Shown here one piece after another: positions 4,087 through 11,429 of a DNA stretch of 64,000 nucleotides. The position numbers and the translations under genes are program-made. The notes under the pieces are model-generated. The model worked only from the letters and a program-made list of their open reading frames with translations, did not search any database and was not told where the DNA came from. The stretch's first letter is position 1, and every line of letters begins with the position of its first letter. Source of the DNA: Bryobacteraceae bacterium (lineage in GTDB: Bacteria; Acidobacteriota; Terriglobia; Bryobacterales; Bryobacteraceae); assembly GCA_026129905.1 (NCBI GenBank), contig JAHCHE010000010.1, forward strand, positions 186,001 to 250,000, read 5' to 3'.

Positions 4087-4126
4087 CAACCGGCGCCTCC
4101 GGGACACTCGATTGTCAGGAGGGGCC

Positions 4127-5428
4127 TTGAAAACAGCAACTACGATCGTCCAATTCGCTGTTCTGGCGGCGCTGTGCGGAGGGAATTCTCCGGCCGCCGC
4201 GGCAACCTTTACGGTAAACAGCTTTGCCGATGCCGGCGACAGCAATCCGGGCAACGGGATCTGCTCGGCGGGACGGGCAGGCTGCACGCTTCGGGCGGCT
4301 ATCGAGGAAGCGAATGCCTTGCCGAGCGCACCGTTCGACCCGGATATCATTCTTGTCCCCGGTGGGCTCTATCCACTTTCGCTCGGCGCGCTGAAGATCA
4401 CGGACCATCTCCGAATTATTGGGGCGCGGGAAGGCGAGGCGACCGTGGTGGACGGACAGCAGCTCGACAGCGTGTTCGTCGTCGACGGCGGCCGGACGCG
4501 GATCGGCGTGGAGATGCACTTCCTGACGATCCGGAACGGCCGGGCGCCCGACCAATACGGCGGCGGCGTCAGCAACGACATGGGTAATCTGCTGATCCAC
4601 CGGAGTCGAGTCCAACTGAACACAGGCTTCTCGGGCGGCGGAGGAATATACAACCGGGACGGGAGCATCGTGGCGCTGTCGCGGAGCTGGGTGTTCAACA
4701 ACGGCGTCGCCGGCGACAGCAGCGCCGAACCGCAGCGCGGCGGGGGATTGTACAACGCGGGCGCGGCGTTCGTGGACCAGAGCACCATCAGCAACAACGT
4801 CGCCGGACGCGGCGGCGCGATCTACCAGCCTGCCGGCGGGTACTTGATCGTGCGCAACAGCACGATCAGCTACAACACGGGACACGTGGAAACGGGCGGC
4901 GTGATGGCGAGCGGAACCGCTTACCTGAACAATGCCACTATCGTGTACAACCGGGGTGTTCCGGAAACGCTGCCGAATGGACCGCCGCAAGCGACAGCGA
5001 CCGGGGGCCTGTACGGCGGCGGGAATACGTTCGTGGCCAACACGATTGTGGCCCACAACACACTCGGACCTGATGGCATGTACGTGGAGCGGCACGACTG
5101 CGCGGGAACGATCACGGGAGCCGGCTACAACCTGGTGCTGGATCCGGCCGGGTGCACGCTCGCTGGCGACGTGACGGGAAACGTGCTGGGACAAGATCCG
5201 CTACTTGGCTCGTCGGCATTCAACGGCGGAGATTCGCCCAACTTCTCGCTATTGCCCGGCAGTCCGGCGATCAATGCCGGCAATCCCGCGTTTCCGAACG
5301 GCATCGGCGCCGCTTGCGAGCCGACCGACCAGCGATTCATGCTGCGGGGCATCGGCCCGGGGGTGGGACGCTGCGACATCGGCGCGTATGAGCGCGGGGG
5401 GGCGCCGGGCGAGGAGGCTGCCCCGTAG
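4127..5428 (+). CDS. Secreted right-handed beta-helix protein with CSLREA-type N-terminus
   Basis: About 433 residues. I choose the TTG at 4127 because AGGAGG lies 4 nt upstream; an in-frame TTG at 4112 would place that site inside the gene. A Sec signal peptide (KTATTIVQFAVLAALCGG ... AAAA) is followed by TFTVNSFADAGDSNPGNG and CTLRAAIEEANAL, which matches the CSLREA domain seen at the start of many secreted beta-helix proteins. The rest is a run of short N/G-rich coils (GGGVSND, GGGIYNRDGS, GGGLYNAG, GGAIYQ, GGVMASG), typical of parallel beta-helices of the choice-of-anchor Q type, ending in CDIGAYE. Such proteins are surface or extracellular, often polysaccharide lyase-like or adhesive. 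No catalytic residues can be named. Confidence 0.8.
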   Translation: MKTATTIVQFAVLAALCGGNSPAAAATFTVNSFADAGDSNPGNGICSAGRAGCTLRAAIEEANALPSAPFDPDIILVPGGLYPLSLGALKITDHLRIIGAREGEATVVDGQQLDSVFVVDGGRTRIGVEMHFLTIRNGRAPDQYGGGVSNDMGNLLIHRSRVQLNTGFSGGGGIYNRDGSIVALSRSWVFNNGVAGDSSAEPQRGGGLYNAGAAFVDQSTISNNVAGRGGAIYQPAGGYLIVRNSTISYNTGHVETGGVMASGTAYLNNATIVYNRGVPETLPNGPPQATATGGLYGGGNTFVANTIVAHNTLGPDGMYVERHDCAGTITGAGYNLVLDPAGCTLAGDVTGNVLGQDPLLGSSAFNGGDSPNFSLLPGSPAINAGNPAFPNGIGAACEPTDQRFMLRGIGPGVGRCDIGAYERGGAPGEEAAP

Positions 5429-5667: not shown

Positions 5668-6852
5668 ATGCGGATCCGCCGCAGGGATGCTCTGGGACAA
5701 CTCTTCGCCATGTGCGCCGGCGTGACCCGGCTCGGCGCCGAGCAGGGAATCGCGCCGGACGATCCGGTGCTCGAACCGGCGAACGTGATGGATTTCGCGC
5801 GGCTGGCGCAGACGAAGCTCGATCCAGTGGCGTGGGACTACCTCGAGGGGGGCTCAGAAGACGAAGTCTCACTGCGCGACAGCCGCGAAGCCTTCAACCG
5901 GATCATCATCCGGCCGCGCGCGCTGGTGGACGTCCATGAGATCGATCTCTCGCTCGAACTGTTCGGAAAGAAGCTCTCGTTTCCGATCATCCTCGACCCT
6001 GCCGGCGGCAAAGACTGTTTCCACCGCGATGGCGAAATGGAAACCGCGAAAGCCGCGGCGGCCGCCAAGGCCATTCACATCACAAACGGCGGCATCGATA
6101 AACTGACCGAAACCGGCAAGGGACCCGTTTGGTGGCAGGTAACCACGGGCGGCGAGTTCCGCACCGCACGCACCATGACCGCCTTCGTCCGGCGCCTGGA
6201 GAACCAGGGCTGCTCGGGTATCTGCTTCACCACCGATATCATGTACGTTTCGCACCGCGAGAGGAATATCCACAACCGGTTTGTGCGATCGTGGTGCAGC
6301 TTGCCGGGCGGAATTCCCCGCGACGCCCAAGGCATTCTGCCAAGGGAGGGGGCGCCGGAGCGCACGGGCATTTACCCGTCCCGTCCGTTTCCGACGCCGA
6401 CATGGGAAACCGTGCAGCAGTTGCGTTCACTCACCAAGCTCCCTATCGTGCTCAAGGGCATCCTCATCCAGGAGGACGCGCGAAAATCCCTCGAGTGCGG
6501 CGTGGACGGCATCATCGTGTCCAGTCACGGCGCGCGGCAACTCGATCACGTCGGCGGAACGATTGAAGCCTTGCCTGAGGTGGTGGCGGCGGTCGACGGC
6601 AAAATTCCCGTGCTGATCGACGGAGGATTCCGCCGCGGAACCGACATTCTCAAGGCGCTGGCGCTCGGCGCGACGGCCGTCGCTATCGCCCGCCCCTACC
6701 TGTATGGACTCGCGGCTTTCGGTCAGAAGGGCGTCGAGCGCGTAGTCGAGCTACTGCGCACCGAACTGGCGCTCGACATGGCGTTGGCGGGAGCGCCGAA
6801 TCTAGCCGCAATCGATCGCAGCTTGGTGCGCATCCGAGGAGGTTCGTTCTGA
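5668..6852 (+). CDS. FMN-dependent alpha-hydroxy acid oxidase/dehydrogenase family protein, divergent active site
   Basis: 394 residues, TIM-barrel of the glycolate oxidase / L-lactate dehydrogenase (LldD) family. Landmarks: YLEGGSEDE (Tyr58, equivalent to Tyr24 of glycolate oxidase), PIILDPAGG, VLKGI (Lys263), SSHGARQLDH (His287 base and Arg290), VLIDGGFRRGTDILKALALGA (phosphate site). The second active-site Tyr (glycolate oxidase Tyr129, in FQLY) is replaced: here the block reads WWQVT, giving Thr159. The N-terminus MRIRRRDALGQLFAMCAG resembles a Tat signal, which would place the flavoprotein in the periplasm. The stop overlaps the next ATG (TGATG), and a tetraheme cytochrome follows, suggesting electron transfer to cytochrome and not to oxygen. 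Substrate is unknown. A CATAAT overlaps the ATG and there is no Shine-Dalgarno, so the start is tentative. Confidence 0.85.
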   Translation: MRIRRRDALGQLFAMCAGVTRLGAEQGIAPDDPVLEPANVMDFARLAQTKLDPVAWDYLEGGSEDEVSLRDSREAFNRIIIRPRALVDVHEIDLSLELFGKKLSFPIILDPAGGKDCFHRDGEMETAKAAAAAKAIHITNGGIDKLTETGKGPVWWQVTTGGEFRTARTMTAFVRRLENQGCSGICFTTDIMYVSHRERNIHNRFVRSWCSLPGGIPRDAQGILPREGAPERTGIYPSRPFPTPTWETVQQLRSLTKLPIVLKGILIQEDARKSLECGVDGIIVSSHGARQLDHVGGTIEALPEVVAAVDGKIPVLIDGGFRRGTDILKALALGATAVAIARPYLYGLAAFGQKGVERVVELLRTELALDMALAGAPNLAAIDRSLVRIRGGSF

Positions 6853-7628
6853 TGGAACGGCGCCGTTTTCTTTCGCTCGCGCTGGCGGGCGCAACCATTC
6901 CTGCCCGGGCCAAGGACGCTCCGTCGCGGCCGGCAAAAGTTGTCACGCTCTTCAAGTCGCCTGAAGGCAATCCAAACGCCCTGGAAACCGTTCCCGAGGG
7001 TCTGTGGATCGGCGAACAGGTGACCGATCGGGCGCACCTGGTGGACTGGGAGGGCAAGCTGATCCGGAGCGTCGACACCGAATCCTCCAACACCAGCGGA
7101 ATCGCCTACGGCGGAGGGTTCCTCTGGATGGGGGCCAACGGCAAAGCCACGTGGCGGGAGCCTCGTCCCGCCGACGCCACCACCGGAGAGATCCTGAAAG
7201 TGGACCCGTCGAACGGCAAGACGCTCGCCCGGTATCCGGTACCCGGCGGCGGGGGCGTCCACGGACTGGAGTACGCCGAAGGCAAGCTGTGGATCACCTC
7301 GCTGAAGATCGGCAAGCTGACGCAGGTGGACCCGGCGGACTTCCGCGTGGTGCACCAGATTCCGGTGCAGCTTAGCCGAGCGCACGGGCTGGCGTGGGAT
7401 CCGCCGGGCATCTGGTGCATGTTCTCCAACGACCGCGTCATCCAGAAGCTCGATGTCCGCGACGGCGCCGTGCTCGACGTCATCACGCTCTCCAAGGACG
7501 ACCCGGACCCCCACGGCATGTGCATGCACAACGGCAAGCTGTACTACTGCGACGCGGGCGTAGCCCCTTCGGCGGCCGCGAGCAACAGCCCCTATGTCGG
7601 TTACATATGCCGGGTCGACTTCGCCTGA
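6852..7628 (+). CDS. Exported beta-propeller protein (Vgb/SMP-30/NHL-like)
   Basis: 258 residues. MERRRFLSLALAGATIPARA is a Tat-type signal peptide with twin Arg followed by FL. The remainder has repeated blades of the form GLWIGEQVTDRAHLVDWEGK, GGGFLWMGANGK, GLEYAEGKLWITSLKIGKL, GLAWDPPGIWCMFSN and GMCMHNGKLYYCDA, i.e. W-I/M strands alternating with D/N-rich turns, as in streptogramin-lyase-like or quinoprotein-like propellers. No PQQ motif or catalytic residues can be named. It is translationally coupled at both ends: its ATG overlaps the oxidase stop, and the cytochrome gene starts inside its last 22 bp. This makes it a likely scaffold or substrate-binding partner of the two neighbours. 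Confidence 0.75.
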   Translation: MERRRFLSLALAGATIPARAKDAPSRPAKVVTLFKSPEGNPNALETVPEGLWIGEQVTDRAHLVDWEGKLIRSVDTESSNTSGIAYGGGFLWMGANGKATWREPRPADATTGEILKVDPSNGKTLARYPVPGGGGVHGLEYAEGKLWITSLKIGKLTQVDPADFRVVHQIPVQLSRAHGLAWDPPGIWCMFSNDRVIQKLDVRDGAVLDVITLSKDDPDPHGMCMHNGKLYYCDAGVAPSAAASNSPYVGYICRVDFA

Positions 7629-8179
7629 CCCTGTTGTGCGGCGCGTTCCTGTGCGCGGCGCAGCAGCCTTCCGGGCCGCGCATTCTGCGGCCGGCCGACG
7701 GCTCGGTCGTGGACCAGGGACCCTTCGTGGCGATCGCGAAAACCGACGGCGAAGGCTCGTTGAAGCTGGACGGACAGACCGTAAAGGGGGATGTTCCAGC
7801 CAGCGGCGTCCTCACGGCAGACATCGATCTCGGCCCGGGCCCGCATGAACTCGCCCTTTCCACAGGGGGCAGGGAGTACAAGATTCGCTTCCACGCCGGG
7901 CCGTCGCCGCCGGAGGGGTGGTCGCCCTATCGGAGCCATCCGCCAGGGGGAGATTGTGGCGCGTGCCACTCGGCCGCCGCCGGCGCATGGTCGTTGAAGG
8001 ACGAGGTTGCCGGTCCCGCCTGCATGGTGTGCCACGATGCCGCGGCCTTCCCCAAAACGCACACCCACAAGCCGGCCGAACTCGAGGAGTGCCAGATCTG
8101 CCACGATCCGCACGGTTCGGCGGTCAAAGGTCACCTGATCATGGCAAAAGAAACCGCCTGCAAACAGTGCCATGGGTGA
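7607..8179 (+). CDS. Exported tetraheme c-type cytochrome
   Basis: 190 residues from the ATG at 7607, which gives a Sec signal peptide (MPGRLRLTLLCGAFLCAA). Residues 25-100 form a small beta-rich domain (GSVVDQGPFVAIAKTDG ... GPHELALSTGGREYKIRF), resembling the Ig-like domains in front of multiheme modules. Four CxxCH sites follow: CGACH 117-121, CMVCH 139-143, CQICH 162-166 and CKQCH 185-189. The pairing and DPHGS element match doubled-CxxCH cytochromes. It would accept and pass electrons in the periplasm. The gene overlaps the propeller gene by 22 bp, so the three proteins should be made together. A longer frame upstream has no support. Confidence 0.85.
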   Translation: MPGRLRLTLLCGAFLCAAQQPSGPRILRPADGSVVDQGPFVAIAKTDGEGSLKLDGQTVKGDVPASGVLTADIDLGPGPHELALSTGGREYKIRFHAGPSPPEGWSPYRSHPPGGDCGACHSAAAGAWSLKDEVAGPACMVCHDAAAFPKTHTHKPAELEECQICHDPHGSAVKGHLIMAKETACKQCHG

Positions 8180-9838: not shown

Positions 9839-10951
9839 GTGCGTGGACCTTCCCAGCCTGGAAAGCACCGGCCGAGGCTGGTCTTCTGGGAACTGACGAC
9901 CGGCTGCAACCTTCGGTGCATCCATTGCCGCGCCAGCGCGACGGAGTTGATGTCGCCTCAGGACCTCAGCTATTCCGAGTGCTGCCACGTGGTCGATGAG
10001 ATTGCGGAATATGCCCCACTAATCCTCGTTTTGAGCGGCGGCGAACCGCTCTGGAGGCGCGATGTGTTTGACATCGCTCGCCGGGCCAAATCCAAGGGAC
10101 TCCGCGTCGCGCTCGCGACCAACGGAACGTTGGTTGACGAAGCGATGGCGTTGCGCATTCACGACGCGGGCATCGAGCGCGTATCGATCAGTCTGGATGG
10201 CGCCGACCATGCCACCCACGATACGTTCCGCGGTCATCAGGGCGCTTTCCATTCCGCCATTCGCGGCATTAAATGCCTCAACGAACTGGGGGTATCGACG
10301 CAGATCAACACTACCGTCTCCCGCCATAACGAACATCAATTGCCCGATATTCTGAAGCTCGCGCAGGACCTCGATGTAGATGCGTTCCACATGTTTCTGC
10401 TGGTACCGGTCGGCTGCGGCCTGACGATTCAGGACGAGCAGGCGGTGACGGGCGCCGATGCGGAGCGGATTCTCAACTGGTTTTACGAACGCTCGCTCGA
10501 CTCCCGCCTCGAACTAAAGGCCACCTGCGCGCCGCACTACTACCGCATCATGCGGCAGCGGCGCGCCGAATCCCGCCGCGCCGGCGAAAGCGTACCGGAA
10601 CTGGCCCGGGAGGGCATGCACGCGGTGACGAAAGGGTGCCTTGCCGGGGCCGCCGTCTGCTTTGTGTCACACCAGGGCGAAGTATACCCGTGTGGGTATT
10701 TGCCTGTCTCTGCCGGAAATCTGAGGCACGACAGGTTCCGGGATGTTTGGGAAAACGCGCCGATTTTCCAGCAGCTCCGCGATACCGGTAACTTGGAAGG
10801 GAAGTGCGGCATCTGCGAATATAAGAACGTTTGCATGGGATGCCGCGCCCGCGCGTACGGAATGACAGGCGACTACCTGGGGGAAGAGCCGTTCTGCATT
10901 TACGAGCCCAAACAACTTCATGGCGACCACAACTCCATCCAAGCCCTCTAA
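9839..10951 (+). CDS. ahbD: Radical SAM/SPASM protein, AhbD/NirJ-like (heme biosynthesis family)
   Basis: 370 residues, GTG start. CNLRCIHC (Cys23, 27, 30) binds the SAM [4Fe-4S] cluster; LSGGEPL, ATNGTL and SLDGAD are the other radical SAM core motifs. The C-terminal region KGCLAGAAVCFVSHQGEVYPCGYLPVSAGN and KCGICEYKNVCMGCRARAYG is a cysteine-rich SPASM-type region for auxiliary clusters. The combination with FLLVPVGCG resembles AhbD, which decarboxylates iron-coproporphyrin III to heme b in the siroheme-dependent route, and the related NirJ of heme d1 synthesis. ahbA-C are not nearby. The 3' end overlaps hoxE by 32 bp, so it is expressed with the hydrogenase. A role in hydrogenase maturation is an alternative. 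The symbol is provisional. Confidence 0.65.
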   Translation: MRGPSQPGKHRPRLVFWELTTGCNLRCIHCRASATELMSPQDLSYSECCHVVDEIAEYAPLILVLSGGEPLWRRDVFDIARRAKSKGLRVALATNGTLVDEAMALRIHDAGIERVSISLDGADHATHDTFRGHQGAFHSAIRGIKCLNELGVSTQINTTVSRHNEHQLPDILKLAQDLDVDAFHMFLLVPVGCGLTIQDEQAVTGADAERILNWFYERSLDSRLELKATCAPHYYRIMRQRRAESRRAGESVPELAREGMHAVTKGCLAGAAVCFVSHQGEVYPCGYLPVSAGNLRHDRFRDVWENAPIFQQLRDTGNLEGKCGICEYKNVCMGCRARAYGMTGDYLGEEPFCIYEPKQLHGDHNSIQAL

Positions 10952-11429
10952 AGCCGCGGATACCGCGCGCGACAACAGGGCCAAGCTGCTGGAGCGCGCG
11001 ATGTCGCGCCACAGCTATTCCGGCGACGCGCTGATCGAGGTACTGCACACAGCGCAGGAACTCTACGGGTTCCTGACGCCCGATCTGCTCAAGAGCATCG
11101 CCCGCAAGCTGCGTCTGCCCCCCAGCCGCGTGCTTGGCGTGGCGACTTTTTACCATTTCTTCTCGCTCGAACCCAAGGGCGAGCACTCCTACATTGTCTG
11201 CCTTGGAACCGCCTGCTATGTGAAAGGCGCTCTCGGACTCCTGGAAACGCTCGAGCGGCGATGCGCCAAGGCGGGCCGGACCAGCCCCGACGGCAAGGTG
11301 AGCGTAAATTCCGCCCGCTGCATCGGCGCTTGCGGTCTGGCGCCCGCGGTGATTCGCGACGGCGAGATCGTGGGACGGCTCACGCCGCGGCAGGTGACCG
11401 AGGATCTCGACAGGATCGGCGTGAAATGA
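10920..11429 (+). CDS. hoxE: NAD-linked [NiFe] hydrogenase diaphorase subunit HoxE
   Basis: 169 residues, NuoE-like thioredoxin-fold subunit. Four cysteines, Cys94 and Cys99 (CLGTAC) and Cys134 and Cys138 (CIGAC), bind a [2Fe-2S] cluster. [17 protein letters not shown] is the family block preceding the cluster. Helical N-terminus as in HoxE/NuoE. In group 3d hydrogenases HoxE works with HoxFU to pass electrons between NAD(H) and the HoxYH hydrogenase in the cytoplasm. Its start lies within the radical SAM gene (32 bp overlap) and its stop overlaps the hoxF start (ATGA). That neighbour identifies it as HoxE and not complex I NuoE. Confidence 0.9.

Follow-up and report, generated by a model that had tools for sequence, protein, structure and literature searches.

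Genes and conserved features of the locus

The 64,000-nucleotide (nt) stretch analysed here (the window) comes from a Bryobacteraceae bacterium of the Acidobacteriota (GenBank assembly GCA_026129905.1, contig JAHCHE010000010.1, positions 186,001 to 250,000) and bears, on its forward (+) strand, three genes referred to below as HAO, PROP and CYT. HAO (5668..6852 of the window) specifies a 394-residue relative of the alpha-hydroxy-acid oxidases/dehydrogenases that depend on flavin mononucleotide (FMN); PROP (6852..7628), a 258-residue five-bladed beta-propeller with a twin-arginine (RR) signal; and CYT (7607..8179), a 190-residue protein with a signal peptide, an immunoglobulin (Ig)-like domain and a C-terminal tetraheme domain. 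An original prediction, made from the letters of the window, had described them as one overlapping unit; the open reading frames (ORFs), their coordinates and the overlaps of 1 nt (HAO/PROP) and 22 nt (PROP/CYT) were all reproduced. Many Acidobacteria carry this conserved unit, which probably serves to export a lactate-oxidase-like flavoenzyme and to send its electrons to a four-heme cytochrome.

In a Pfam search, HAO matched FMN_dh (PF01070) with E = 1.1e-101 (340.8 bits; cut-off 24.9), and lactate oxidase and glycolate oxidase were among its best relatives of solved structure. It falls in a clade of 44 rows with a tree support of 100 (the HAO clade). Its scores were below the cut-offs of the models for the L-lactate dehydrogenase LldD (NF033901; 194.9 vs 550 bits) and the pre-mycofactocin synthase MftD (TIGR03966; 189.2 vs 470.85 bits), the latter by so much that an enzyme of the mycofactocin type was rejected. 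A fused cytochrome b5 of the flavocytochrome b2 type was likewise rejected, none appearing among the Pfam matches up to E = 0.1.

The equivalents of glycolate oxidase Tyr24, Asp157, Arg164, Lys230, His254 and Arg257 are kept in all 44 members of the clade, the last three being Lys263, His287 and Arg290 of HAO (6454..6537); Thr159 (6142..6144) takes the place of Tyr129. Where glycolate oxidase has Ala79, all 44 sequences have a Gly, which we take to be the equivalent of Gly81 of mandelate dehydrogenase; a change of the latter residue reportedly alters oxidase activity. The clade lacks an equivalent of Trp108, a residue that excerpts from one study describe as confined to glycolate oxidases within the family (PMC10153336). 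As judged from hydrophobicity and alignment, Arg5 and Arg6 of HAO (5680..5685) form a twin-arginine motif followed by the hydrophobic stretch ALGQLFAMCAGV, and both arginines are unvaried in the 16 aligned members of set A1. In 42 of the 44 clade members (strict RR in 40) a hydrophobic stretch of 12 residues comes after RR, KR or RK, an N-terminus that by this crude test resembles signals for twin-arginine translocation (Tat) across the clade. The description of HAO as a flavin-dependent alpha-hydroxy-acid oxidase relative with a Tat-like start thus agrees with both the PF01070 match and the N-terminus.

PROP also begins with RR and a hydrophobic stretch, and its AlphaFold model (mean predicted local distance difference test score, pLDDT, 89.7) has five four-stranded blades, as expected for the Tat-signalled beta-propeller proposed earlier. 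The best fold matches were glutaminyl cyclases (Z 24.6 to 23.2; top match 3mbr, Z 24.6, root mean square deviation 2.2, 208 residues aligned). Identity to these five-bladed cyclases is 13–17%, no cyclase family was found among the Pfam matches of PROP up to E = 0.1, and a shared fold shows no function. The nearest sequence relatives with a solved structure were streptogramin B lyases (profile alignment, E = 5.7e-7), virginiamycin B lyase being among the proteins so aligned, but the match to Vgb_lyase (PF24684) was weak (20.3 bits; curated Pfam cut-off 50). Unlike glutaminyl cyclase or virginiamycin B lyase, PROP is linked to redox genes. Five conserved residues, placed from the strand register of the predicted model, would form a ring, at matching places in the first strands of successive blades: Asn42 (blade 1; 6975..6977), Ser82 (blade 2; 7095..7097), His137 (blade 3; 7260..7262), His178 (blade 4; 7383..7385) and His221 (start of the strand in blade 5; 7512..7514). 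They were present in 81 of 81 rows, except His137 (80 of 81), and were also kept in paralogues (35–40% identity) whose loci lack an adjacent HAO; the profile alignment puts His178 and His221 on two His residues of streptogramin B lyase. We read this ring, at the channel of the modelled propeller, as a putative active or binding site.

CYT scored 39 bits against TIGR01905 (cut-off 25.2) and matched doubled-CXXCH models. Its start is more hydrophobic than those of HAO and PROP and is Sec-like. In the model (pLDDT 81.4), residues 22–100 or thereabouts make up the Ig-like domain, whose best fold match reached Z 10.3; Ig-like matches filled this search, which hardly probed the short heme domain. 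The four heme sites, CGACH (7955..7969), CMVCH (8021..8035), CQICH (8090..8104) and CKQCH (8159..8173), were unvaried in 15 of 15 rows, as were four further His residues (H111, H152, H154 and H169), which suggests that the hemes are bis-His ligated. Complete CYT genes at the named loci described below have exactly four CXXCH motifs each. The protein had been called a signal-peptide tetraheme cytochrome, and the Sec-like start and the four motifs are in keeping with that name.

Linkage and co-occurrence across genomes

Each protein was used to search the source genome and 60 relatives (61 genomes, 49 genera); matches of at least 240 bits for PROP and at least 65 bits for CYT were taken as close homologues. 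At E = 0.001, weaker PROP paralogues were found in 37 genomes and weak CXXCH matches in 55. The HAO clade was present in 26 genomes (14 genera), close PROP in 23 and CYT in 25, the last two only where the HAO clade was present. Fisher p values for co-occurrence with HAO were 7e-14 (PROP) and 3e-16 (CYT), both inflated by kinship, 11 of the 26 genomes being of one genus. All three genes lay together in 17 of the 26 genomes, strictly contiguous in 15; one gene separates HAO and PROP in genome G044, and the contig ends inside CYT in G055. In four genomes HAO and CYT were found without PROP beside them (G031, G023, G009 and G026). The first three have no close PROP at all, and in them HAO is joined directly to CYT; the HAO of G026 (locus L049, 6606-7803) is split over two reading frames, a frameshift or an assembly error. 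HAO and PROP only were adjacent in two genomes, G013 (with CYT elsewhere) and G021. The overlaps recur as well: 14 of the 18 adjacent PROP-CYT pairs share sequence, the HAO-PROP gap is −4 or −1 in 9 of 17, and the HAO-CYT gap −4 or −17 in 3 of 4, all counted with gene starts chosen by script.

When neighbouring genes, predicted with a simple gene caller, were clustered, no further family tracked the triplet across its genome families. The widest other clusters (3 to 6, and 8) were confined to family f3, while a sulfatase cluster (7) and a cluster of mostly long proteins (10) spanned families at varied places. A sample of 297 genomes drawn from the whole phylum contained three with a member of the HAO clade (>600 bits), all with PROP and CYT beside it, and the next HAO scored 347 bits; one genome (G320) had a PROP of 261 bits without HAO. 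These searches scored at most 9, 6 and 11 candidates per genome, so weak members may be missed.

Scanning public genomes with the PROP alignment yielded 80 named loci, nearly all labelled as Acidobacteria, Bryobacterales or Terriglobia bins: 24 with all three genes, 10 with HAO-PROP, 4 with PROP-CYT and 42 with PROP alone. These loci and the genome set partly overlap (for example L112 = G037 and L123 = G013) and are therefore not independent. The 26 genomes behind 27 of the loci without HAO or CYT were searched as a whole: 13 have a clade HAO and 6 have CYT, all of them among those 13. The adjacency seen in the window thus recurs in many genomes, and neither on this point nor on the Tat-like N-terminus of the flavoprotein was the original prediction refuted. 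Chance adjacency of the three genes was ruled out by the linkage, the co-occurrence and the rarity of multiheme ORFs elsewhere, only 2 ORFs with at least 4 CXXCH being found in 754 kb of the same loci away from these genes. PROP as an exclusive partner of HAO was also ruled out, by the 42 PROP-alone loci and by G320.

Two further arrangements were observed. At L036, L038 and L039 two HAO genes of the window clade follow one another in tandem at a distance of 51 to 928 nt, the PROP-CYT pair of the same genome lying on a different contig. At L130, L132 and L164, which have neither HAO nor CYT, PROP is followed by a small secreted protein, presumably a BON-domain protein.

Possible heme attachments in the wider HAO family

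Of 217 HAO ORF matches in these genomes, 26 in which the HG[AG]R motif could not be read at its proper position were set aside and duplicates removed; a tree of the wider family was built from the 112 different frames that were left. A tetraheme gene lies within 1.5 kb of 27 of the 44 rows of the window clade. In its sister clade (support 99) a hexaheme gene stands beside 7 of 10 members, and in another Tat-type clade a pentaheme gene lies upstream in 6 of 18. A heme link was found in none of the 11 members of a presumed cytoplasmic clade. The hexaheme gene is directly downstream of a Tat-type HAO at L243, L251, L252, L253, L254, L255 and L256, and the pentaheme gene directly upstream of one at L259, L262, L265, L272, L277 and L281.

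In a further Tat-type clade (loop-heme) the CXXCH motif lies within the HAO chain itself in 25 of 26 members. It precedes HGGR by 72 to 81 residues, in the segment that runs from the TVD strand to the catalytic Lys and is loop 4 by alignment. A Pro-Met follows some residues later in about 19 of the 25 (counted by eye), and in one member (L279) Pfam Cytochrome_CBB3 gave a sub-threshold match over the loop (E = 0.13). The motif has the appearance of a built-in heme c site, and these proteins may be single-chain flavocytochromes c. The source genome also has a loop-heme HAO (L087 6052-7272 = G000:C12:39123-40265). Beyond the Acidobacteriota, such proteins were sought in plasmids: of 277 matching records three were read, and CXXCH was present in one and absent from two. 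The one is a plasmid of Methylobacterium bullatum (L292, NZ_LR743510.1), whose HAO is 52.8% identical to that of L222, has an RR start and carries CXXCH 77 residues before HGGR; no gene is annotated there in the collection.

On balance we lean towards the view that a single large clade comprises the exported HAOs of Acidobacteriota and that its members have been wired to c-type hemes several times and in various ways: through a tetraheme protein (with or without a propeller), a hexaheme or a pentaheme protein, or a loop-4 heme c giving a single-chain flavocytochrome c, the last also in Methylobacterium. The enzyme family is of a known kind, as are multiheme cytochromes and propellers; a search of open-licence full texts, weak evidence in itself, listed no paper on the three-gene set or on a loop-4 heme c in this family, and the combination and the loop-4 CXXCH are, tentatively, new.

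A proposed electron path and its alternatives

We consider it likely that the unit serves to oxidise a 2-hydroxy acid outside the cytoplasm, with HAO as a Tat-exported dehydrogenase that reduces the periplasmic tetraheme CYT. HAO would fold around FMN, be exported by Tat, take two electrons from the 2-hydroxy acid and pass them singly to CYT, whose presumed bis-His hemes would relay them to the respiratory chain. PROP, with its Tat-type signal, would most likely be a small periplasmic enzyme or ligand-binding protein, and its polar and His-rich site at the channel mouth might act on the same substrate or product as HAO. From the sequences, their conservation, the gene linkage and co-occurrence and the predicted folds, we infer export, the loading of FMN and heme, direct electron transfer, the substrate class and the role of PROP. 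The reading is favoured because the genes are linked and co-occur, because every one of the 44 clade members retains the catalytic Lys, His and Arg and the Arg164 equivalent, and because of the RR start of HAO and the CXXCH and His residues of CYT. It is further favoured by the direct joining of HAO to CYT where PROP is missing, by the heme links of sister Tat-type clades against none in the presumed cytoplasmic clade, by the invariant Gly at the Ala79 place, and by the presence of TatC and cytochrome c assembly proteins in the source genome. Delivery of electrons to a multiheme cytochrome, as first proposed, fits the sister clades, in which multiheme genes of other kinds adjoin the HAO or CXXCH is part of its own chain. 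The earlier suggestion that the propeller is the docking or substrate-binding part was not supported: it is unlikely to be a mere dock because its ring is unvaried in homologues without HAO and because three genomes have HAO-CYT pairs without PROP.

Several observations weigh against this electron path. In three genomes (G048, G049 and G050) the PROP-CYT pair and HAO are on separate contigs, and G021, within the 61-genome set, has no CYT. PROP often stands without HAO, and in 42 of the 80 named loci neither HAO nor CYT is near it. At a threshold of E 1e-12, no CYT was found in 7 of the 13 HAO-bearing genomes behind the 27 loci without HAO or CYT, and for 16–17 of the 44 clade HAOs no tetraheme gene lay within the distance searched. 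The N-terminal test for a Tat signal was positive in 5 of the 11 presumed cytoplasmic HAOs too. Finally, Tyr129 of the characterised enzymes is a Thr in 42 of 44 clade HAOs (with one gap and one Glu). Because of the seven HAO-bearing genomes without it, CYT is a frequent but not an obligatory partner of HAO, and an obligatory partnership was ruled out.

The Thr at this position raises the question of the substrate. It is also found in 7 of 7 rows of the hexaheme clade, while the loop-heme HAOs (26 of 26) and the presumed cytoplasmic ones (11 of 11) keep Tyr. With Thr here, HAO might be non-classical and its substrate not a free small 2-hydroxy acid but a hydroxy acid that is bulky or bound to a sugar or peptide, or else an amine, as it is for pre-mycofactocin synthase; PROP would prepare this substrate by lyase or hydrolase action, and the kinship of PROP to streptogramin B lyases would suit such a lyase role. 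We regard this as unlikely: the equivalents of Tyr24, Arg164, His254 and Arg257 are all kept, so that the head group of a 2-hydroxy acid still fits, the MftD score speaks against an amine-type enzyme, and a nearby radical S-adenosylmethionine (SAM) protein scores as AhbD/NirJ-like rather than as a mycofactocin maturase (166 vs 265).

It is rather improbable, too, that PROP is a metal enzyme feeding CYT and that HAO, using substrates of the same family, is just often found next to it. PROP and CYT are adjacent without HAO in G048, G049 and G050 and at L125, L126, L129 and L131 (some genomes recur between the two sets, and L131 is truncated immediately upstream), and the His/Asn/Ser ring hardly varies. 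Propeller enzymes that have a metal or pyrroloquinoline quinone (PQQ) in the channel and pass electrons to a cytochrome c are known; in thiocyanate dehydrogenase, according to excerpts of PMC9456337, the propeller channel binds three copper ions and the electron acceptor is a periplasmic cytochrome c. On the other hand, HAO-CYT pairs occur without any close PROP (G031, G023 and G009), G048–G050 hold a clade HAO elsewhere in the genome, and CYT was never found in the 13 PROP genomes that lack a clade HAO. That HAO is an ordinary cytoplasmic or oxygen-using oxidase which merely shares an operon with export genes seems highly improbable; the unspecific N-terminal test and the 10 named loci with HAO-PROP and no cytochrome would allow it, but RR is unvaried in HAO, and it is the Tat-type HAOs, not the presumed cytoplasmic ones, that are repeatedly associated with c hemes.

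Known enzymes of the family had been said to use quinone or oxygen. Excerpts of PMC8491902 give these acceptors for glycolate oxidase, lactate oxidase, LldD and (S)-mandelate dehydrogenase, which have PF01070 in common with HAO, but the statement was incomplete, since cytochrome c is the electron acceptor of flavocytochrome b2, a member of this family that acts through a b-type heme domain (PMC6472588 and PMC8491902, in part). This yeast L-lactate:cytochrome c oxidoreductase resembles HAO in its FMN barrel and catalytic Lys, His and Arg, and the proposed unit in delivering electrons to cytochrome c on the outside of the energy-coupling membrane (PMC6472588, in part). Its heme is held by a built-in N-terminal b5-type domain, whereas HAO has none and a separate tetraheme c-type gene, along with Tat-like export and Thr at the Tyr129 place. 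We know of no RR signal or cytochrome gene partner for glycolate oxidase, lactate oxidase, LldD or (S)-mandelate dehydrogenase. Gluconate 2-dehydrogenase and p-cresol methylhydroxylase work alike, as exported flavoproteins with a heme c partner, but belong to other flavoprotein families; the same review of cytochrome-carrying enzymes, in the sections drawn on, places flavocytochrome b2 under the b-type and gives other families as those with c-type partners (PMC6472588). In thiocyanate dehydrogenase and in PQQ methanol dehydrogenase with cytochrome cL, a periplasmic propeller also stands beside electron transfer to cytochrome c (PMC9456337, in part); these propellers are larger and bear copper or PQQ, whereas in the window the flavoprotein is the likely donor.

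If the favoured path is correct, 2-hydroxy acids would be oxidised in the periplasm without uptake, their electrons entering at the level of cytochrome c, in a group known in this analysis mostly from metagenome bins. The related enzymes with their differing heme attachments would form a natural series for flavin-heme coupling, and heme-c versions of lactate-oxidase-like enzymes would be of interest for direct-electron-transfer sensors.

Around the unit, the frame upstream (4112-5428) encodes a secreted protein that has CSLREA and choice-of-anchor Q domains, and a sulfatase gene begins 59 nt downstream of CYT. The radical SAM protein referred to above (9839-10951) is close to the heme b synthase AhbD (474.9 bits; cut-off 500), and its gene adjoins a HoxE-like gene (10920-11429; 222.1 bits, cut-off 224).

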